Below are positions 3,364-55,480 of a stretch of DNA of 64,000 bases, piece by piece; the stretch's first letter is position 1; each line of letters starts with the position of its first letter. Under the pieces are notes generated by a model. It was not told where the DNA came from. It saw nothing but the letters and a program-made list of their open reading frames with translations, and made no database searches. The stretch covers positions 12,074,483-12,138,482 of the forward strand of contig NC_049981.1 of the NCBI RefSeq assembly GCF_000003815.2, in the 5' to 3' direction. This stretch comes from Branchiostoma floridae. Taxonomy: Eukaryota; Chordata; Leptocardii; Amphioxiformes; Branchiostomatidae. A program made the translations under genes and the position numbers.

Positions 3364-4291
3364 NNNNNNNNNNNNNNNNNNNNNNNNNNNNNNNNNNNNN
3401 NNNNNNNNNNNNNNNNNNNNNNNNNNNNNNNNNNNNNNNNNNNNNNNNNNNNNNNNNNNNNNNNNNNNNNNNNNNNNNNNNNNNNNNNNNNNNNNNNNNN
3501 NNNNNNNNNNNNNNNNNNNNNNNNNNNNNNNNNNNNNNNNNNNNNNNNNNNNNNNNNNNNNNNNNNNNNNNNNNNNNNNNNNNNNNNNNNNNNNNNNNNN
3601 NNNNNNNNNNNNNNNNNNNNNNNNNNNNNNNNNNNNNNNNNNNNNNNNNNNNNNNNNNNNNNNNNNNNNNNNNNNNNNNNNNNNNNNNNNNNNNNNNNNN
3701 NNNNNNNNNNNNNNNNNNNNNNNNNNNNNNNNNNNNNNNNNNNNNNNNNNNNNNNNNNNNNNNNNNNNNNNNNNNNNNNNNNNNNNNNNNNNNNNNNNNN
3801 NNNNNNNNNNNNNNNNNNNNNNNNNNNNNNNNNNNNNNNNNNNNNNNNNNNNNNNNNNNNNNNNNNNNNNNNNNNNNNNNNNNNNNNNNNNNNNNNNNNN
3901 NNNNNNNNNNNNNNNNNNNNNNNNNNNNNNNNNNNNNNNNNNNNNNNNNNNNNNNNNNNNNNNNNNNNNNNNNNNNNNNNNNNNNNNNNNNNNNNNNNNN
4001 NNNNNNNNNNNNNNNNNNNNNNNNNNNNNNNNNNNNNNNNNNNNNNNNNNNNNNNNNNNNNNNNNNNNNNNNNNNNNNNNNNNNNNNNNNNNNNNNNNNN
4101 NNNNNNNNNNNNNNNNNNNNNNNNNNNNNNNNNNNNNNNNNNNNNNNNNNNNNNNNNNNNNNNNNNNNNNNNNNNNNNNNNNNNNNNNNNNNNNNNNNNN
4201 NNNNNNNNNNNNNNNNNNNNNNNNNNNNNNNNNNNNNNNNNNNNNNNNNNNNNNNNNNNNNNNNNNNNNNNNNNNNNNNNNNNNNNNNNNN
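3364..4291. other. Assembly gap (928 N)
   Basis: Run of undetermined bases. Nothing can be said about its content. Confidence 0.99.
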
Positions 4292-6593: not shown

Positions 6594-7447
6594 NNNNNNN
6601 NNNNNNNNNNNNNNNNNNNNNNNNNNNNNNNNNNNNNNNNNNNNNNNNNNNNNNNNNNNNNNNNNNNNNNNNNNNNNNNNNNNNNNNNNNNNNNNNNNNN
6701 NNNNNNNNNNNNNNNNNNNNNNNNNNNNNNNNNNNNNNNNNNNNNNNNNNNNNNNNNNNNNNNNNNNNNNNNNNNNNNNNNNNNNNNNNNNNNNNNNNNN
6801 NNNNNNNNNNNNNNNNNNNNNNNNNNNNNNNNNNNNNNNNNNNNNNNNNNNNNNNNNNNNNNNNNNNNNNNNNNNNNNNNNNNNNNNNNNNNNNNNNNNN
6901 NNNNNNNNNNNNNNNNNNNNNNNNNNNNNNNNNNNNNNNNNNNNNNNNNNNNNNNNNNNNNNNNNNNNNNNNNNNNNNNNNNNNNNNNNNNNNNNNNNNN
7001 NNNNNNNNNNNNNNNNNNNNNNNNNNNNNNNNNNNNNNNNNNNNNNNNNNNNNNNNNNNNNNNNNNNNNNNNNNNNNNNNNNNNNNNNNNNNNNNNNNNN
7101 NNNNNNNNNNNNNNNNNNNNNNNNNNNNNNNNNNNNNNNNNNNNNNNNNNNNNNNNNNNNNNNNNNNNNNNNNNNNNNNNNNNNNNNNNNNNNNNNNNNN
7201 NNNNNNNNNNNNNNNNNNNNNNNNNNNNNNNNNNNNNNNNNNNNNNNNNNNNNNNNNNNNNNNNNNNNNNNNNNNNNNNNNNNNNNNNNNNNNNNNNNNN
7301 NNNNNNNNNNNNNNNNNNNNNNNNNNNNNNNNNNNNNNNNNNNNNNNNNNNNNNNNNNNNNNNNNNNNNNNNNNNNNNNNNNNNNNNNNNNNNNNNNNNN
7401 NNNNNNNNNNNNNNNNNNNNNNNNNNNNNNNNNNNNNNNNNNNNNNN
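6594..7447. other. Assembly gap (854 N)
   Basis: Run of undetermined bases. Long frames that pass through it on both strands are artefacts. The right flank (7448-7720) is C- and A-rich and contains two copies of a phrase reading CAAAAATCGTCG, so the gap probably interrupts a repeat. Confidence 0.99.
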
Positions 7448-19597: not shown

Positions 19598-22537
19598 CTA
19601 GAAATAATCCTTGTTGGTCTGTTTCGTCTGTTCTGTCTTACTGACAACATCCACTTCGTCCCCATCTTGTTCCACACCAGTAGGCTCTGTGGAAATAGAG
19701 ATTGAAAAACATCATCGTTTTAACGTTGCAGCAGTCCTACACGGTATTCTGCCTTGTGTGTCTTGAGCGTGTGTTCACACACAAAGTACCCACACTGTCT
19801 ACATTTCTAACAAAAACATGTCTACATGGTCAATAGAAATAGAATAGTTGCGTGTTGCTTTTGTACATTATTTGAACCCTTATCTATCATCCGGGTACCA
19901 TCCGGGTAGTAGGTCACGCTTCTGGAATAGCAGAGAAGCGACTGTATATTATCCAGGAGGTTAAAAAATTATAAAATCACTTTTTTAACCTCCTTGATAT
20001 CATGTATAATAAACGTCGGAGCGAACTACTTTCCCGATTGTACTCAGGCTGGCTACCCCTATCAACATAGTTCTATATTTCTTGAAGGTGGAAAAGCCAT
20101 AGCATGTTCAGAATATGCGATACCAACACCTGAAGTCCCAACAACGACTCATAGAAAGCCATCAGAGGGTGATGAGTATCGTATCTATAATCTCACCTCG
20201 CTAGTATGTGGGGAAGGANNNNNNNNNNNNNNNNNNNNNNNNNNNNNNNNNNNNNNNNNNNNNNNNNNNNNNNNNNNNNNNNNNNNNNNNNNNNNNNNNN
20301 NNNNNNNNNNNNNNNNNNCCTTCCCCACATACTATATAATCTCACCTCCTAATATCGGGTCAAAGACTTCGCTGGATAATCGTTCCCTGGGATCTTGTTT
20401 GACCAATGACGTCCTTGGTTTGACTGGGACTTTATGGATGAGAGTGGCTGCCTTCCTCGGAGGTTGAAATGAACCTGAGTTACAGAAAACCATTTGCAAC
20501 AAATCGTCGCTTGAACGTTTTTCTTTCTGTCATGTACATGGTACCAAAACTAACGCACTTGATACTAACAGAATGATACTGTATCACCGTATGATATATC
20601 GTTACTAAGTTTGAATCTACAGCCAGTATTCAAGACTTTGATAAACTGATGAGCTGCTGAAATAAACTAAAACCATCGACTAATATAGTAACTTCACCGA
20701 TTGTGGTAATTTCAAGATAAAATGTTATGAAGGCTTGAAGGAGAAGAATAAGTTGTGAGCTTACCGTGAGAGTTGAATTTTTGTAGTTGGGCGCGCTGCA
20801 CATCGTGTCGTCTCGTTTGGTAATCAGTTCCCGCCTTTTCCCTGTTCTGTTGTGAGATGCCATGTGATAGGCCACCTGCATTATTCCCGCCATTAGCGCC
20901 CTGGTTATACGAGTCACCTCTGTGGGGCTCAGTGTGCTTAGGGACGGTTTCAACAAAGTTGACGTCCTTGGAGTTGTCGAGAACAATCTTTTCATCAGAA
21001 CTGTCTTCAGAGAATGTGCTCACATGGCTTCTCCAATCGTCACCGTCGTTTGAGGTGCTCTCTTCCGTTTGTCCGCCAGAGGGCGTGATGTCATGGTTGT
21101 ATTCTGTGGAAGATTTTTCCTTCGGGAGGATTTGAGACGTCTGTTGAGCACCTGTGATAGGACCAGAAATATAACCCCCTGGCTTTCTTTCGTTCTGTAC
21201 ATTGCTTCCTACACCGTATGTTCCGAGATGAGCTTGTGGTGAACTTTGTGCGGCCACGTTGCCTAAATTGTCCCTTAGAAAGGCCGGCTGCCATTGACCT
21301 TGTCCTAAAGACGGCTTAATTATTATTCCCGGTCTGACTTGCTGTGGACCGGTATTTTGAACACCCCTCTCCGGTCCACTACCATAACGCCACCCAGTCC
21401 CCTGTTGCAATCCGCCATTCTTGTCTCCTCCAGACAAGGCCGAAGATCCCTGATATTGTTGGCTAGTCGTCGGTCTGCGACTTTGGTTTGGATTGAAAAC
21501 GTTTTCTGATCTTCCGCCAGTTATCCTGCCATAATTTTGGTTGTCGAATCTGGTTGGTTCGTTGCTACCACCAAACGCACTCGGCATGTAAGCTGATGTA
21601 TCATGCTTGAAACGTTTCGATGCTGTCTTAGCCTTGACGGCAGGCGTCGCGATGGTCTTCGTGACAGACGGACTGTTGGCAGGCTCTTGCTTCAGAGCGG
21701 CACGGCGGATAAGGTGTTTCTTCTGTAAACATTCATAATCAAATTGTCAGGACCTAAGTAACAACAATAGTTTACAGTAAGAATGTGCTCGCTCCATGAG
21801 AGCGTTACCAAAAGTACAACGTTTCAGCCATGTATTTGTACTGCTTATTCTTGTTACCATAAATGTATATAAAATGAAACTTTCCTAAGAAAAGGATAGC
21901 GATAGAAAGGAAAAAAATATAACTGTATCATTTTAAAGCGGCCGATAAATAGAAAAAAAAGGAAAGTTAACACAGCTTTAACATAACAATGCTGCCAAAC
22001 ACATGTGATACAACCCTGACGACCGAAAGATGCATAGACATAAAGTCTTGACGAATATCTTGAACAAAATTGGACGAAAACCTTCCGCAAGTCACTCATA
22101 CGGAGTCCTACCCCCAAACAGATCCCGGTCGGGCTGGCAGCATAGTCTGACCGGTCCCACACACACTCCTGGAACACCAGGCAATCTGCGTCTATCAGAC
22201 AGGGGGCGCTTCTCTAATAAAAAACAACAACAGGTAACAGGCATTTGTCCTGTACATTTTAGCGCAGATCAAAGTTGCAACATCTTCTTCAGGGTTCTTA
22301 ATTTTCAAATCATGTATAATATTATATGTGTCCATGTGTGTGTTCTGTTTATACGTGTAAATAAAAAAAGGACAAATGCACTTATCTAACACATGGCACC
22401 TTCCTGTTATCGGTAACATGTTTTCCATGTTATCAACCCGTCAATCAACCCACCGTTGGACGGTGTGTGGCCGCACATCCGGCGAACTGTTGTGAAAGGA
22501 AGGCAGTCAGCACCAAGGACAGGGGCCACTGACTCAT
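19598..22537 (-). CDS. Predicted secreted protein with a four-cysteine motif and a long disordered tail, 420 aa
   Basis: Exons on the minus strand are 22537-22454, 22213-22082, 21722-20765 and 19686-19598, all phase-consistent. Exon one starts at the ATG directly after a CCCTACAG acceptor and encodes a signal peptide (MSQWPLSLVLTAFLSQQFAG). Exon two carries cysteines at residues 33, 39, 45 and 60 around DADC, QECVW and GIC, a spacing like small secreted Cys domains. Exon three is basic at first (KKHLIRRAALK) and then low-complexity, rich in G, Q, N and S. The last exon gives a charged tail ending KDYF. No enzyme or membrane domain is seen and I do not recognise the family. A 5' UTR exon ending with GAAAG/GTATGT near 22917 is likely. 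The gene is convergent with the ankyrin-CARD gene and head-to-head with the NLR-like gene. The exon-two donor (AAG/GTTTTC) is weak. Confidence 0.75.
20219..20318. other. 100-N gap flanked by an inverted repeat
   Basis: A gap of exactly 100 N usually means unknown size. The left edge reads AGTATGTGGGGAAGG and the right edge is its reverse complement, CCTTCCCCACATACT. The gap sits in the last intron of the secreted-protein gene, and a hairpin or foldback element may have broken the assembly. Confidence 0.95.
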
Positions 22538-28154: not shown

Positions 28155-28997
28155 TATGTAACGTTATGTACATGTGCCTTAAAGCCTGTGCCGAAATGTT
28201 GACCGTGTTTTCACTCTTCAGTGACAGTAAACAACCAATTGAAACTTCGATCTCTTAAATGGGTGACTTGATGTTCCTCAAGTCTCTTCTGTCCTCTCCA
28301 AAAATATTTGCAAATACATATATTTGCGGAAGGATAGAGGAGACTCGGGAGCTATAAAACGTCTGGATACCAGGCTATCCATTCACCGTCTTCCTCTAGA
28401 TCTGTATACAAATGTATATGGCAGATCTCGTATCTCATGCAATGCCTTATCTAGCCTGCATATCTATGTTTCTATGTTCCTATCCTCTGCCTGTTATATA
28501 GATGGGCAGCTTAACGCTTTCCTTCGGCATGTAAAATCCTCCTCTAGCTTGCAATTCATTGGTTGCATGCTCAGCCGGATCAGACCAAGATAGAGGGATC
28601 ATACAATGACGGACTCGCGTACAAGTAGACATAAGAAGAAACATCAATGTCTTAAAACGAAAACTTGTCACATGTGAAAATTTGACATTCCTTGCTCGTA
28701 GAGTTTAGGAAAACTTAAAAACGAAAATACTTAACTCACATAATACAATTGATATCAGGAGGTTCATGATTATGTACGCATGAGCAGTGAAATGTACTGT
28801 GGGTATCAGGTCAAAGTTGAGGGCCCATGAGACGTAAACAAAACAAATCAATGCAAATCTCGACAATGGTCTTGGAAAGGCCAGTTTATACGTTAGGGGT
28901 CTTCACCTTCGTCATATTACCTACAGTACATTAAAATGCTTACTTTACAACCAAATATAGCGGGTTCACCACACTCATGTGTCCCAATAACCCATGT
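28155..28997. other. Intergenic; one imperfect palindrome
   Basis: No gene is seen. 28281-28299 and 28332-28345 form an imperfect inverted repeat (AGTCTC..CTCTCC against GGATAGAGGAGACT) with an AT-rich loop. The right part probably holds the 3' UTR of the SLC22 gene. Confidence 0.35.
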
Positions 28998-31900
28998 CTA
29001 CTCCTTAGCTTCCTCCTGCACGATGCCTTCCTTCCCGAAGTTCTCGCCCTCCTCGATGGTAGACGGCAGCTGTTTCTTGTTGGTTTCCGGCAGGAGCAGC
29101 GTCAGCAGCCCGGCGAGGATGGACGTCCCCCCGAAGATGACGTAAGGCAGCGGCGCCCAGTAGCTCTCGGTTAGGTTGACGAACGGGGCGACGATCCCGC
29201 CCACCCGGGAACTCATCGAAGCCATGCCGATACCGATTTGCCTGCAATGCACAAAAGATCACAAAGTGAACAAGCTCTAAGGGTGACCTGACACTAGTAG
29301 TACTGTGTGAATGTAGCCATTAGTGATCACTACACTACAACGCCTTTGGACCTGAGCCAAACCATATTTACAATTCTCCAAGTTTCCTATTACACCACTC
29401 TCGCCTTTCTTCAATATTCACATATCTGATGACGCATACCAAAACAAACAAAAACAGACTGACAAACACAACAACTGATCAAAATCAGTACCCCCATTTT
29501 CAAGGGGGTAATGAAGGAAGGAATGACAGTGAATGAATGAGTGAATGAATGATCAGTTTGATGGCTTTCAATAATTTGTCACGTGTCATCAAACTTCAAA
29601 TACAGCCTGCTGCATGGGAAATATGCACCATTACACAACAAAAACTAGAAATACAAACGGCTGGGACGTTATTTTCTACATGTTAGCTGAAGTCCCTGCA
29701 TTTCAACTGTATGAATTACTATAATTTCATTTCTGTAAAGTGTGTTATTCTCAATCAAAAGTTTTAAATAGCATACCTGACTACGGTAGGAAAGATCTCA
29801 GCTGAGAAGATGTAGACGATGCCGAAGGTGGCGGTGATGCAGAACTTCCCGGTCATGGCCAGGGTGGTGGTCAGCCATCCGAGGGCTATCACATACAGGA
29901 GATAAATCAAAGATTAGATAGATCATATCAAGAAATGTATCACTAATACGAGTAACATAACGGTACCTATTATTGCACACTACCAATCATCGTCCGCTTT
30001 GGGCCAGGCACACATATATTGACGTGTATTGTGCAATGTAACTATTAAGAAATAGCAACATTGGTATGGCCCCTTGTCATGACTTTTCTTTGTACAAAGC
30101 AACGAAATAGGTTTGCATCCAGTGGTACGACAGAATAGACTCCTGAAGCCGTAACAACAAGTTACTTGCAAGCGTCAAACCTGACGTATTTCATATGTAA
30201 TTTGACACAGTATATTCTATCTATTTTCTTTTCACCCCACACGGAAGCTTACGTAACCTAATGAGCTTCACCCTAGAACTGGATGGCAATTTCTTTGGTA
30301 TTTTCTATTCTAACGAGAGTAAACCTGATGACCACTGATGTACACTAATGGAAATCGCAATAAAACAAACAAACAAACAAACAAACAGATCAAGCCCTTG
30401 GTTACGTTGTAGTACAGAGATACGCACACTTTGGAATGAAGAAGGCCACTATACAGGAGATACCGCCGAAGACGAGAAGAATGCACAAAGGCAAGCGTCT
30501 TCCGAACCTGGGTCAGACAGAGAGAGATAACATCATAACGGCAGTATTTAAGCTACTATTTTGTCTCAATGCACTTAAGAATGCAGCACAATGCAGCACG
30601 GATGATCGATGATTGTCCAGTATTCTCATGTTGTACCAGACCCTGTAAAAGCATACAAACACAAACAAACAAACAAAACAAACAAATAAATAAAAAGAAA
30701 GTTGGAGCACAGCACTCACAAAAACCCAGGTAAACCGATACACTGATTACTCATGTTCTTTATGTTGGGAATCCTAAAAATTGTTATGTCAGCAGAACTA
30801 AAAACAAAGCTCGACAGCATCTCATCAATGTTAAACGTACATAATTTAAGGTTTTAACATGAACGAAGCCGGTCTGAAAAGTGTGATCCATGACACGTAC
30901 TTATCCAGGAGGTAGATGGAGATTAGGTAGGCCGGGATCTCCACAAAACCGGACAAGGCGAAGTTCAGGTACACGTTCCCGCTCAGGGCAGACGTGTTGA
31001 GGGATATTCCATAATACACCAGGGAGTTCACACACCTGTAGTAAAAAGTATAGTACAAGTGTGACAGATCATGAGACGGGGGGCGTTACAGGCTATCTGC
31101 AAATTATCACCGAGTCCGGCGTGGTCTACTGGCCTGCACATGTAAGTGATATCATAAAACGGTGGATTGCTTACTAAAGTATTTCCTGACAATGGCTAGA
31201 CAACTTTCTTGACTCGCCACAATGACGTTCGAACCGGAAGTCCGCCATGTTGGATGATAATCTGATTCGTTTTGATATTCGATCCAACATGGCGCCGCTG
31301 CGTGACGAAGCGGTTTTCCGAATGTTCATTAAAAGAAGGCAGGACAACTAGATATAACTGTTGAAATTCTTGGTCATAGTCTGAAATACCTAGCATGACG
31401 TCGTATACAAAGAGAAAGAGTGAAACAGGTACGACGTTCTACTGACCAGTTGTAGAAGAGGTTTAGAGACCACTTCCGCAGGTTCGGGGTCCTGATCAGG
31501 TCGATGAATGTGTAGGTCTCACTCTTCTTGGCCTGCTCTTGTTCCTTATAGCAAAAAAACAAAAAAACAAAAAACAAATGTGAAACCTTGTCAAAACACT
31601 TTAACCCAACCTGAAACGTCGAAGGTTACTTCAGAAAGCTAGAAAGTCTACTAAGCTTCTGATTACATCAAAACGTGTGGCAAAACTCAATAATCAACAA
31701 CTTTCGCCATTCTTCCTTTGCTGCAAGCAAGAACATAGAATACAGCTACAAGTAGTACTGATTGTTCCTGACAGCATCAAACATGAAATGACAAACGTGA
31801 TATGAAAACCAAAGGTTCCGCTGCAGTGCCGTAAAAAGCCGTTAGAAGGTACTTTATCGAAGTCAACTTTCGTTTTGCCAACCCCTACCCACCTACCAAA

Positions 31901-34900
31901 TATTACAAGCTCTGGAGACATCCACAGGCTCTGGAGTTTTGATCGAAAACGGCAGCGAAAGCCTAAACCTTTTGGCAAAAGGAATGATGTTACACAAGTT
32001 GTAATTCTGACACATCCTTAGAAACGATTATCGACTATCACCTGAGACAGAGGGATGGCGTCATGGAAGACCTCATCAGGTATGGTGACCTTGGCGACCT
32101 CCGCGGCTCTCCGCACGATTTCTGCCGCCTCCTCGTGCCGATTCCTGGAGATCAGCCAGCGGGGGGACTCGGGAATAATCCTGGATGTGGCAAGGGGTTT
32201 TAACGAAAGGTAAATGATCTGTTTTCCTTCGGCTCACTCAATGGTTTATTCGGTCGTGCACGTGGTTATAAGTCAATAGCTTGGTCACGGCTATAATATT
32301 TGGGTTATTTAAACGACTAACGACCTTATTTTGCTTTGCTCACTCGGTGGTTTATTCGGTCATTGTTATGTTAACTGATCAGGTGTCATGTCACCGTAAA
32401 CCCCGGAGAAAAAGTTGGTCATTAAAGTTATTATGATATAGCCAATTCAAACTGACGCTGCCATCGTTGAAATTGAAATCCTATCATTACTACAGGCTTA
32501 AGTGTGCTTACTTATTCCTCTCAAAGCATTGTTCATCAACAACCGTCAAAAACAAAAGAAACATACACAAATGCTTACACTGCATGAAATCTGGTCGTAA
32601 AGCATACTTTGACTACAAAGATTACAGAATCTCTACGCATGTTTTAAGGCGTACTTAAATACTGTATTTCGTGCAGTGTTAAAGGCTTGAAAGGACCTAC
32701 CACCAAAAGGAAATGCAGACGAGGTACGGAACGGTCATGGTGATCTGTAGCCACATCCACGGGCGGATGAGATAAGCGATGCCGGCTAGAAGCACGTAAG
32801 CAACGGCCCAGTAGATCCAAATCACCATCCCAACCAACCCTCGCTTATCGGCGGACACCAGCTCTGTGCCTATTGGACGATAGACATAATCTAATTAGAT
32901 ATCGCGGAAAACCATTGGTCAAAACTTACCCCCCAAACGCGAGACAGAGAAGGATAGGTGAGTTGATGAAGATCTGTAGCCACCTCCACGGGCGAATGAC
33001 GTAAGCGATGCCAGCCAGAAGCACGTAAGCAACGGACCAGTAAACAAAAATCACCACCCCCACCAAGACTCGCTTATCGGGGGACACCAGCTCCGAACCT
33101 AATCCAGGATATGAAGTTGCGTATTACATGTGAAAAAAAATGGTCAGAATGAATAGGCCGCGTTATATAAGTTTGGAATATGATTAGTATTATGTAGGTC
33201 ACAAGTTTGTGGAAACTATCTTGACCTTGAAGGAAACACAATGATGAAGTCCTGAAATCTTTGCCAAACGGACGCATACCGTAGTGTTAGGTTAGCCCCT
33301 GGGGCGTCACAAAAAACATTTAAGCTCATCATCAAACTTATAATTGGCGGACCGGGGAAAGAAACGTGGCGTTAAGCGTTAAAACTGTAAAGATGCATAA
33401 GGCACTCCAGCAAGACTTGCGAATAAATGATTAAATAAACTTGTATACTAACGGCTCTATAACGGTATGCCATGGCATACGTTGCACAGCTCACGGCACG
33501 GGCCCATTTGTCGTTGCACGACACATGCACGACCATGCCAAGAATGCATTCAGTTAGCTGCATAGCGACCATACGATGATCATGCGACAAACCTGACTGC
33601 TTTACGTACCTAACACAAACGGTACCAGTGTGGTAACCATGGTGAACGCGCCCATAAGGAACCGGTAGGCGGCGAAGGCGGCGTAGTTTGGGGAGAAGGC
33701 ACTCGCCGTGGAGAACACACAGTCTGCGGCAAGGGCTACCAGCAACACCGGCTTACGGCCCCATCTACAGAAGACAGAACAGCAATTTGGTCAGGATTCT
33801 TTTAAACTTTCATACGAACACAAGCGACGCTTCGACCTTCATCAGGAAAACTGCTTCACTCACTTCTGACACGTGACCACACGGAACGTGACGTCAGAGG
33901 TGGACACGTGTTCTGGAAGTCGGCATCGTCCCCCGTTTAAAATTGGATCATGAAACATACCAAACCCGTAGGTTTTTTTTGTTACGAAGGGACATGAGAG
34001 AGAACTGGTTTATTTATTTAAACACACAATGCCATGTACAAGATTATAGTCCGAGGACTAAATTGCCTCGTACATTGTACAGGAGAGGCTGTCGCTTAGG
34101 ACTAAACACAATGGAATGTCCTGCCTAAGTGCCTTAATCTAAATATACTTATCACAATTTTCACTAAACTTTACAATTTAAAATTGTGGGTCTACACACC
34201 ATCAAGTAAATATATATCTATGTCAATTATAAAATCGATCTCATTCTGAATGATTAAAATGTGACACTTCAAAGACTAGTGTGAGTTTAACAGATCGATA
34301 CAATAAGGCAGCGTGGTATTCCTGAAACGCGATGTTCGGCACTTAAACTGGCTGAAGTTGTCAGCATTTCTTAGGTCCCTGCCATGTACCTCAGAGCGGC
34401 GTGGTGGTAGCCAGCAGTTGAAAACCTCAGAATGAACAATAGATCTGGCATACTTCAGACAGAGAGCTTTACGCCTTACATGCAGAGGTTCTAATTTACA
34501 AATCAGTAGCGCTGAACTGTAGGAACTGAAAGAACGACCAAGAATGATCTTACAGGCCTCTGAGGGAGCACTATAATTGCATCAAATCAACTACATATGA
34601 AACAAACAAATTACACAAAGAAATACAGTGGTGGAGTATTGTATGCTGTTGTTCTGTTTTGGTTTATTCCTGATCGTACCTGTCGGCTGCATGCCCCCCA
34701 ACCACCGCCCCGACCATGAGACCTGCCATCCACAGAGACTCCGCTAGGTTCACCTTCCAACTGTCACCACAGACCAAATCCCACTGCAAACAAGATAACA
34801 GCATGTCGACCAGGACATAAGATTCAAAAGCCGAAAATTCTGCTGGAGTACCAAAGTCGGCCACATGGGGGCCCAAACTATACCTCCAATTTTACATAGT

Positions 34901-35885
34901 GGTAAACATGTCAGATAGAAAATGTTTTTACTTTATTGTTGTTTACTGGTCACTATCATGACAATATCTTAGATTATCCCTTCTCTAACATTACTTACCA
35001 AAATGTCAAGGTTTCATATTATTGATTTGAATTTTGAAAGCTTCAAAAGCAGACTACTTTCTATAAAGGAATGGTTCTGCAAATAATGATCTCATAGCCA
35101 CCTTACAGGGCAGTAAAAAGAAGTAACGTACGTCGGTAACGACCGTGCTCTTGTATTGGGACCTGTCGTGCTCGTACCCCTGGTCACACGGGATCTGGGT
35201 CCGGTTGGCCGCTGGATATGCCTGGACGAACTCTTCATATGTGGTGTTGAAGACCGTGTCGGATAGATTGTAGCTGTAGCTAATCATATGGGAAATCCAA
35301 CGCCATTATTGTGTTAATACATTGATTAGCACGTCGTAGCAGTACGAAACAAGTGTGAAATATTGCTACAGGCATGGATTTGAACATTTACTGTAAGATT
35401 ATATCATTCTAGACACTGACATTTTACTGGTTTTGAACTAACTCTGGGCGACTGTATTGTCAAATGAGCGTCAGTCATCGGCAACCATTCCGAGTTTACA
35501 GGAGTCCGAAGTTCACAAACCTCCGTGAATTAATACAGTAATATGATTTGTTTTACATATTGATGATTTGGTGTAAAGAGACTTTGCATGAAATGTTAAC
35601 TAACCGACTGCACTGACTCCGCTTCCATTCCTCGTCTTCCAGCTCCCATGGGATGGTGACGTTCAGCAGCTCGGCCGGAGTCGCGTTCAACGCCGAGAAG
35701 GTTTCCAGAGGGACCCGGCACTTAAAGTCGGGCTCGAACGCCAGGAAGACTATACCCATGACCTGTAATGCACTAATGGCGATAGGGATAGCGACGGGGA
35801 AGAACACCCTCTTCTGCCACGGCCCAAACCCGCCAAGGTACTCCAGAGCTTTGTCGTAGTTGACCACGATTGTTTCAGACGCGCT
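28998..35885 (-). CDS. SLC22-family organic cation/carnitine-type transporter
   Basis: Minus-strand exons: 35885-35605, 35279-35132, 34783-34680, 33764-33610, then 33098-32930 or 32869-32701, then 32180-32042, 31544-31447, 31035-30901, 30507-30428, 29885-29777 and 29241-28998. Phases agree throughout and give 553 residues from the first secure exon. Family signatures are GGFGPWQKRVF, five N-glycosylation sequons in the large first extracellular loop, STVVTDWDLVC, ADRWGRKPVLL, IIPESPRWL, SLNLFYNW, SALSGNVYLNF, EIPAYL and FGRRLPL. The family has 12 membrane helices and moves organic cations, carnitine or anions across the plasma membrane; the substrate cannot be read from sequence. The initiating exon is unsure: the first secure exon starts in phase 0 after CTTGCCCAG, and candidate upstream exons end at 38023 (M-G-I then GTAAGTG) or near 36510 (starting MADTMMAEV). 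Exon five exists in two versions. Confidence 0.92.
31795..31935. repeat. Dispersed repeat, copy 1
   Basis: Shares with 44450-44615 an ordered set of blocks: GCAGTRCCGTA, a TATCGAA-type block, CCCACCTACCAAATAT and ATCCACAG. It lies in an SLC22 intron; the second copy lies in a CARD-SH3-LRR intron, in the same orientation. Class unknown. Confidence 0.55.
32701..32869 (-). other. SLC22 alternative exon 5B (169 nt)
   Basis: Same length and phases as 5A, with acceptor CCAATAG and donor TG/GTAGGT. It encodes TELVSADKRGLVGMVIWIYW, then the identical VAYVLLAGIAY, and RPWMWLQI. By eye about 37 of 55 aligned residues match 5A. Only 60 bases separate the two exons. Including both would shift the frame. 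Confidence 0.88.
32930..33098 (-). other. SLC22 alternative exon 5A (169 nt)
   Basis: Acceptor GGATTAG and donor GG/GTAAGT. It enters in phase 1 and leaves in phase 2 and encodes transmembrane helices 5-6, starting GSELVSPDKRVLVGVV and containing VAYVLLAGIAY and RPWRWLQI. The frame is open and keeps the family's W-R-W-L-Q box, so it is not an obvious decayed copy. Confidence 0.85.
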
Positions 35886-38550
35886 CTGGGCAAGGGAAAA
35901 GATACCAACAACGTAACAGCACATTATTGACGATTCATTCTATACATGTACAATGAAAGTAGGACTATCATCAGACGGAATGATGGCCACGTCTGACAAT
36001 TTCTTTCAACTACGAAATAATACATGATATTATACAGTGATTGCCAACTCTACTTTGGATTCAAAGCGGCCTCTCATATCAATTTTAGCTTCTCGTGAAT
36101 AAATAAAGATGGCTAAAAATACTTCATCAATTTTGCTTTTAGAATTTCTTTATTCCCTCGCTTAAGAAACCGTGTTGCTAATGGAGAAACATACTAATTC
36201 TACGCCTATGAACAGCTACTGTAAATGGGGAAATGTTAGCAAGGGAGATATATATCTAAACCGCTAACTTGAAACCAACACAAATATGTTTGTTCCGTAA
36301 CTACCCCATTGTGTTAACCCCGAACGTATAACTCTGTGAACATTCCATTTTCTCCCTGTAATTCCAGCGAAAATGCCCCCTGTACATTATCAGAATGATG
36401 AGTTGTAGTTAAGACCTTGTGTCTTTCCTTGCCACTTTGTGTCTGGTTCGGAAACAGAACTATGGCGTCATGGTCCACTTCCGCCATCATGGTGTCAGCC
36501 ATCGTCACACAGGTCTGAACCAAGAGAGATTTGTGAAGAAAACTTGTAAGAGAAGGACACACCAAGAGAAAACTGTTATTCTTAAGCAAGGCCACATTGA
36601 CTTAATTGTATATCCATTCGTGCATAATTACCTAATACAAATTTCCCACCGTTTCCGATAAAAAGGTTTGCCACCATTCAGTCAATCGTAAACATGAGCA
36701 TACATATATATACTGTATTGCAAACAATATCGGAGAACAAATACTAGGAGAACCAATAGCTATGAATAAAGTCTTCCAAAGTCAAAGACGTGAAAGAATA
36801 CAGTGTTCTGTGTGTTCAGTCATTTGTTTAACTTTCCTGACCACTTAGATTTCATAATAAAATTTCTTTAACGATCGCATCATGTTCGGGGTGCGCCAGC
36901 CCAGAGGATGGCAAAAATATAATCAAATCAGAATGTGTTAGAAACGTCAGTCTTATACATCGATAAATCCCAAGTTTCAAGTCAATCCATTGATTTTAAG
37001 TGACAGGGAGCTTAAGTTGTAAAGGAAAATTTACAGTCGGCAGAAACGGCAACACTGCCAGGTTACGATCTCTATACCATATCAACTATCTAAGGAACCA
37101 CCTTGTACTCCTTAATATAATAATAAGAATATTCGTCCAACGCCTAATCTATTATTAATGGTTACACTTGCAGCTGACTTTATTAGGTGCCTATCAGCTG
37201 TACCTTATTTCATAATTGGCTTATTTGTATCAACAAATTGAATCAACAAATTGAGAGATGATGCTTGGTTGGAGGTGCGAGCCGTAACAAAGCACTACCA
37301 CTAGCTACTGGAAAAGCGTTGTACTTCCCTCTAGCTTGGAATGACTGCATTGCCTTTAAGTTTAGTTTAACGGACGTATTCCAGTATGCGTACAAATGGT
37401 AATTGCTGCAACTGTTCCAAAAAGAATTATTTCAACTAGGCATGTGGCGCCCCCGAAGACTGCATACCTATACTCGTATATGCATATTTTCAAGTTGTCA
37501 TAAATCCCAGGTGACTAGTACTGTTCAATAGTAAAGAGAACCACGGTGGACAATAAGGGTCTGTACTGGTCTACATAAACCTTCCAACAACATTTCATTC
37601 ACTGAGTTTCCACACTACAAAATCATCACCAAGAAACTCTGACTCCTGTTTTGAAGTGAATAAATATAGGAACGATTGCCCGAAGTTATAAGGGAGTACC
37701 GATTGTATAGTCGGTAACAATCGGCTCCGCCTTTCGGTGTAAGATATACATGGAATATACAAGGAAATTACGCCAGTCATTGAAACCCTCACAGTCACCT
37801 ACCTGCGAACGTCCTTGCAGGATATTCTCTTTGCGCTTATGACCAGTTGATGTTGACTGTAATGGTAGCGGAGACTGGGCGGGCTCGAGCACTGGAGCTA
37901 CCGAAGACCTAATTGGCGAGGACCCGGTGGTGTCGAAACGGTAAACACCACGGCGATATGATTCGTTCCAAACCCTAAATCCTTACAGAAAACGGGTTAT
38001 TACTGCAGTACATGACACTTACAATCCCCATATCGCGGACGGCTTCCTTAATGATCCTTAATCTAATAGAGGCTCCTTTCCGGTTTTGTGAGACTCGCGT
38101 GGCTCACATGATGCGATTAAACTGGTCTGTGCCAGCTAGTCGGAGACTTTTGTTTTAGACCTGGCAAATTATGTTATTCATAATCATTACATCACCTGTC
38201 AACGCGGTAGATTAATGACTCAAGAACAAATTATATGGTCAACACTATTTCTCCATACAATGAAATGTAGTGCATATCTATGCCCCATTGGAACTAAATG
38301 CTTTATGTTCCATAAATATATATAAAAAGCTAAGAACACTATGCTATGCTTATATATAGATATATACAATTTTCATGTTTCTCGTCTTAAAGCACTTGAA
38401 AGAAATTGGTAACATTTCCTCCTTTAATTCATCCATAAAATAACGTTTCAGTACATGTCAAGAACATACGTACGAACTTTGCCATATGATCAACAGGGGA
38501 TCGATGTTATAGTCAAGATTTTGTTATTGTTCTAATGGCTAATAATTTCC
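35886..38550. other. Upstream region of the SLC22 gene; candidate first exons only
   Basis: Two stretches could supply the start of the transporter. On the minus strand an exon ending at 38023 reads ATG-GGG-ATT before GTAAGTG, in the phase needed. Around 36537-36450 an open frame starting MADTMMAEV could end at AAG/GTCTTA. A third donor, CGCAG/GTAGGT, lies at about 37802. None can be preferred from sequence alone. Otherwise this is AT-rich and non-coding. Confidence 0.35.
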
Positions 38551-55380: not shown

Positions 55381-55480
55381 NNNNNNNNNNNNNNNNNNNN
55401 NNNNNNNNNNNNNNNNNNNNNNNNNNNNNNNNNNNNNNNNNNNNNNNNNNNNNNNNNNNNNNNNNNNNNNNNNNNNNNNN
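55381..55480. other. Assembly gap (100 N, size unknown)
   Basis: Directly follows a SINE head. It may hide the rest of the SINE and conceivably the first TRIM exon. Confidence 0.98.

Follow-up and report, generated by a model that had tools for sequence, protein, structure and literature searches.

A tandem pair of TM5-TM6 exons in an SLC22-type transporter gene of a lancelet: a candidate for mutually exclusive splicing

The DNA analyzed here (the window) is a stretch of 64,000 nucleotides from Branchiostoma floridae, located on contig C3 of the genome. On its minus strand lies a gene coding for a transporter of the SLC22 type (organic cation/carnitine/anion-type MFS), which was modelled from 36502 to 28998 and which contains, between two constant exons, two exons of 169 nt in tandem. 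We call them 5A and 5B, following the numbering of an earlier note on this DNA; the pair would occupy the place of the sixth coding exon, rather than the fifth, if the modelled upstream exon 36502-36416, the least certain part of the model, holds. The features, in the order of transcription, are as follows.

36502-36416, 35885-35605, 35279-35132 and 34783-34680 (span 34680..36502), minus strand: upstream coding exons of the model
33610..33764, minus strand: upstream constant exon, with a phase 1 donor
33101..33215, minus strand: AG-free zone of 115 nt before the 5A acceptor, with CTAAT (-89), CTGAC (-49) and a T8 tract
32930..33098, minus strand: exon 5A, 169 nt, the derived copy by our analysis, TM5-TM6 region
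32870..32929, minus strand: intron of 60 nt between 5A and 5B
32701..32869, minus strand: exon 5B, 169 nt, the ancestral-type copy by our analysis
32042..32180, minus strand: downstream constant exon, which begins inside IIPESPRW
31544-31447, 31035-30901, 30507-30428, 29885-29777 and 29241-28998 (span 28998..31544), minus strand: downstream coding exons, the last one with the stop codon

SLC22 proteins are polyspecific carriers of drugs and metabolites. The 582-aa product of the gene could be aligned over most of its length with the structures of OCT2, OCT1, OCT3, OCTN2, OAT1 and URAT1; among solved structures the best relatives of the B form were OCT2 (8et9, 1.8e-108), OCTN2 (9pdq, 1.4e-106), OCT3 (7zh0, 2e-104) and OCT1, and OAT1 was matched at 1.2e-80. 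Against the family model TIGR00898 the B form scored 494.7 bits and the A form 485.3, neither reaching the cut-off of 550.75, while Pfam PF00083 matched the B form with 129.5 bits, above the cut-off; a Pfam search using the 57-aa exon peptides alone returned no match. The PESPRW loop that follows TM6 is present, in the exon downstream of the pair. Counting along the alignment rows, OCT1 E386 corresponds to E in this product and OCT1 D474 to R, a combination that we find more in keeping with the transport of zwitterions or anions than with that of classical cation carriers. When both products were compared with the window by tblastn (E <=10), the exons of this gene and one weak chance match were recovered, with no second SLC22 gene and no extra exon copies in the window.

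The equal length of 5A and 5B, their equal phases, their intact splice sites and their open frames, all described in the earlier note, were confirmed, with AG directly before each exon and a GT donor directly after it (GTAAGT and GTAGGT). The exons share 131 of their 169 nt, and their peptides 38 of 57 residues (67%), in agreement with the two-thirds that had been estimated by eye. Only two direct repeats of at least 40 nt were found in 28500-37000, the pair being the longer one (188 nt in register, 77%). The second repeat lies in the intron after 5B (32213-32255 and 32319-32361) and is 43 nt long, its copies being 74% alike and 106 nt apart. The block VAYVLLAGIAY, pointed out previously as fixed, indeed shows no amino-acid differences between 5A and 5B; as it carries three silent ones, its identity does not come from recent copying, and recent gene conversion is not supported.

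Translation of the spliced models yielded a full-length product of 582 aa from 5A alone or from 5B alone. Inclusion of both exons leads to a stop at 322 aa, which bears out the frame shift anticipated for double inclusion, skipping of both to one of 267 aa, and retention of 5A, the intron and 5B together to one of 315 aa; thus, in the model, exactly one of the two exons is needed for a full product. By eye the donors and acceptors of both exons look like those of the U2-type GT-AG class, and a U2/U12 incompatibility is not supported as the cause of exclusion.

The whole genome (513,431,437 bases in 431 contigs) was searched with the 5B peptide, and at least 46 matches were obtained at no fewer than 45 loci (the best candidates), 44 of them outside this gene; L001, L002, L009 and L005 correspond to the window, and L003 and L004, which duplicate L007 and L008, were dropped. 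Among these at least 45 loci only the one under study has a second copy of the exon within about 1.5 kb. No pair was seen within about 1.5 kb at the 44 other loci, although runs of N in L006, L015 and L024 could hide one, the check for N being restricted to loci other than L035-L050. The same restriction applies to the splice-site comparison, the AG-zone comparison and the paralog profile used below. The limits of the exon were checked in 28 paralogs, where AG was found in 28 of 28 and GT in 27 of 28 (the exception being L007); since the same limits recur at these loci, chance does not account for the likeness of the two exons.

Two of the related loci deserve a separate description. The exon of L007 (G000:C3:10529145-10529312), a close SLC22 relative, ends in TTTTGGTG followed by GCCAGA, with no GT donor at that point, for which a decayed gene, a shifted donor or a sequence error are possible reasons. 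In the case of L008 (G000:C3:5033078-5033245), a related SLC22 exon, no neighbouring exons were detected within about 1.5 kb, and it possibly has long introns or is a lone or broken copy.

To place the duplication in time, 5A and 5B were compared with their five closest paralogs, which are 63-77% identical to 5B and 55-58% to 5A. The divergence between 5A and 5B amounts to 0.45 for silent and 0.20 for amino-acid-changing sites; because the silent divergence between 5B and the paralogs is larger (0.73-1.57), the duplication is probably younger than the split from those five paralogs. Outgroup voting assigned 25 changes to 5A and 7 to 5B, leaving 4 open; by type, about 19 replacement and 8 silent changes fell on 5A, against 3 replacement and 6 silent on 5B. 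On these counts 5B is the ancestral-type exon and 5A the derived, fast-evolving one.

The rate of 5A was further analyzed with a codon model (55 codons and 7 sequences, the paralogs being the five closest only: L006, L007, L008, L010 and L011). When 5A was given its own rate, the model fitted better than with a single rate (P 0.0009), and omega was 0.68 versus 0.11 for the background, a value not distinguishable from 1 (P 0.54); the 5B branch had an omega near 0, not significantly different from its background of 0.12 (P 0.23). Moreover, 5A ends in GG, while W occupies the last position in 37 of the 44 other loci and the position before it in 4 more (41/44), this terminal residue being read with the donor G, as the last base of its codon comes from the next exon. 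Of the exceptions, L035 could not be judged and L026 and L027 have neither. The exon of L041 (G000:C10:13398300-13401600) seemingly ends in W-G instead of W-W, in part resembling the GG of 5A.

A different picture emerged from the fit of 5A to the family profile, built from 28 paralog exons; it speaks for 5A having been retained as part of a transporter. Neutral copies simulated with 20, 24, 28 or 32 substitutions equalled 5A in 1.4%, 0.4%, 0.1% and 0/2000 of the cases (P 0.014, 0.004, 0.001 and <0.0005, respectively), all simulated copies being stop-free by selection, with a probability of carrying no stop of 0.44-0.33. The 28 to 32 simulated substitutions correspond to 16.8-18.5 amino-acid changes, and 5A and 5B differ by 18 in the same 55 codons. 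Hydropathy at the helix positions of 5A was weakly above the simulation (P 0.057-0.021), and the lack of charged residues in its helices was not significant against it (P 0.21-0.11). In addition, of 11 alignment columns that vary little or not at all, 5A conforms to 10, which is not significant alone (P 0.055); these columns were taken from a 15-row alignment of 5B and 14 paralog exon peptides chosen from the 45 loci. On the paralog profile 5A scored 77.6 bits, inside the range of 59.0-78.2 obtained for the 16 loci left out of the profile, a comparison in which 5A is closer kin to some profile members than those loci are. The history of 5A may be read as fast change under continuing constraint, a pattern indistinguishable from that of constraint that ended recently.

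The intron between the exons was next considered as a possible barrier to their joint inclusion. While the other introns of this gene measure 325-915 nt, this one has 60 nt; the shortest of 66 flanking introns measured at other SLC22 loci has about 182 nt, these lengths being estimated from tblastn ends, with introns above about 1.5 kb beyond measurement and 22 of the 88 possible flanking introns having no neighbour exon detectable within the fetched stretch. The only yTnAy branch-site matches in the 60-nt intron are A11 and A35, counted from the donor, and A35, the later of the two, lies 34 nt from the donor. Both are under the steric threshold of ~50 nt given for human mutually exclusive exons (PMC5740500; PMC7969005). 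The claim that 60 nt is too short for splicing 5A to 5B is favored by an unusually short intron and by the 34 nt up to the later branch match, but it does not hold in absolute terms: as human introns of 43-65 nt do get spliced (PMC8363638), exclusivity by intron size is not certain, and the short donor-branch distance would be an argument against joint splicing and not a proof.

The acceptor of 5A is also peculiar. Its AG-free zone of 115 nt is the longest of 40 acceptors, the 38 others ranging from 15 to 98 nt and 5B having 19, and it contains the branch-site-like CTAAT at -89 and CTGAC at -49, the latter followed by eight T; TTCAC at -36 is a candidate ordinary branch site. The 285 other AG gaps within the introns of this gene all measure 90 nt or less, and gaps of at least 115 nt make up 5 of 3670 on the minus strand of the window; the test was picked after looking at the sequence and is supportive only. 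In human, zones of at least 100 nt are enriched in cassette and mutually exclusive exons (68/235 vs 47 expected), with about half of such zones attributed to chance and half to distant branch points (PMC1431707). The score of the 5A acceptor is below all but 1 of 38 acceptors. The comparison set for splice sites and AG zones comprised 28 paralog exons and 10 other acceptors of this gene (27 and 10 for donors); donor ranks were left unused, the donor profile being biased by the shared exon end.

Regarding the protein, alignment to OCT1 places the paired exon at TM5-TM6, by the helix limits of OCT1. Residue 276 (W in 5B, F in 5A) aligned with OCT1 Q241, residue 279 (W in both) with F244, and residue 280 (A/S) with T245. 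Q241 and F244 of OCT1 contact metformin (PMC10567722); Q241 is on TM5, and the changes Q241A and F244A strongly reduce metformin transport and reduce that of MPP+ less (PMC10940649). Because the W/F difference at 276 matches the pocket position Q241, a change in substrate preference between the 5A and 5B products is plausible. The earlier suggestion that the gene could make two transporters with different substrate pathways rests on one or two pocket positions.

Considering all these observations, we favor, with some reserve, a tandem duplication of the SLC22 TM5-TM6 exon combined with mutually exclusive splicing as the best explanation for the pair. The proposal of mutually exclusive splicing made in the earlier note is supported in part, by the equal phases, the frame-breaking length, the short intron and the profile retention of 5A, but it has to accommodate a 5A that is derived, has an omega of 0.68 and lacks the terminal W. 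According to this explanation, the TM5-TM6 exon of an SLC22 gene would have been duplicated in tandem; once one of the copies is defined as an exon the other would not be readily joined to it, as within the 60-nt intron the donor and the branch site would be about 34 nt apart; and transcripts carrying both exons or neither would meet an early stop and be degraded. Exon 5B would be the default and 5A probably a regulated, rarer exon with a weak acceptor of the distant-branch type. The differences between the two products would lie in TM5-TM6, among them the residue aligned with OCT1 Q241, so that substrate preference or rate may differ as well.

The main competitor, unlikely in our view although to be taken seriously, is that 5B is constitutive and 5A a relaxed duplicate, used rarely or never, whose frame is open only as the duplication is not old enough. 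Such a decayed duplicate stays alive as a reading because 5A is derived, its omega, although above background, is not distinguishable from 1, and it is without the terminal W, its end having gone from WW to GG; the ratio of about 19 replacement to 8 silent changes on 5A against 3 to 6 on 5B, its weak acceptor and the probability of 0.33-0.44 of having no stop by chance all fit as well. Against this reading speak the family profile, kept by 5A better than in neutral simulations, the length equal to that of 5B with no net indel in 169 nt, the two intact splice sites and the AG-free zone of 115 nt. It is improbable that 5A serves an unproductive or dominant-negative product, its inclusion tuning the amount of active transporter, either through decay of double-inclusion transcripts or through a protein that would fold without transporting. 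The early stop at 322 aa upon double inclusion and the terminal tryptophans missing from 5A would agree with such a role, but coding constraint, some of which is seen by the profile test, is not required in a pure poison exon, and the 5A-only transcript is in frame and full length in the model. Very improbable is an artefact of assembly or prediction: nothing was found in its favor, the runs of N that do exist in the window lie far from the pair (3364-4291, 6594-7447, 20219-20318 and 55381-55480), the 38 differences in 169 nt between the copies are much for a haplotype collapse, and when the 5A sequence was searched against the genome at the DNA level, one full-length identical match was produced, its own locus.

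Mutually exclusive exons with comparable features are known. In NKCC2 (SLC12A1), exons 4B, 4A and 4F are likewise homologous tandem exons coding for a TM helix of a solute carrier; they are used one at a time and set ion affinity, as shown at the RNA and functional level (PMC7818487). By analogy, the lancelet pair would work like exons 4A/4B/4F, with the difference that NKCC2 belongs to another family, has three exons and performs ion cotransport, whereas the lancelet pair has two exons, covers two helices and is a candidate recognized in DNA. Mutually exclusive exons are also documented in human for SLC25A3 and SLC39A14, solute carriers of other families (PMC5740500). Exons 4a/4b of OGDH owe their exclusivity to the short distance, 25-41 nt in human, that separates the donor from the branch point in the intron between them (PMC7969005), a trait that the lancelet pair would have in common with them. 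In OGDH, however, a long stretch separates this branch point from the acceptor of exon 4b (PMC7969005), while in the lancelet gene the intron itself is short and the AG-free zone precedes the first exon, 5A. Among the literature matches listed, none described mutually exclusive exons in a member of the SLC22 family; 'SLC22' is absent from the main text of the human survey of mutually exclusive exons (PMC5740500), and a human survey of tandem exons mentions SLC once, for SLC12A1 (PMC9741552). Neither was this pair present among the matches listed for amphioxus mutually exclusive exons, nor this gene among those listed for amphioxus short introns or Branchiostoma SLC22.

It is possible, though rather doubtful, that, through the exchange of TM5-TM6, a single SLC22 gene gives rise to two transporters that prefer different substrates, with 5A as a lineage-specific, new exon in fast adaptive change. 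If true, SLC22 would join the solute carrier families using swappable exons, and a natural pair of proteins identical outside TM5-TM6 would serve as a ready experiment on which residues determine substrate choice. The pair may also capture a duplicated exon early on, while its two copies are diverging unequally and neutral decay can be distinguished from new function.
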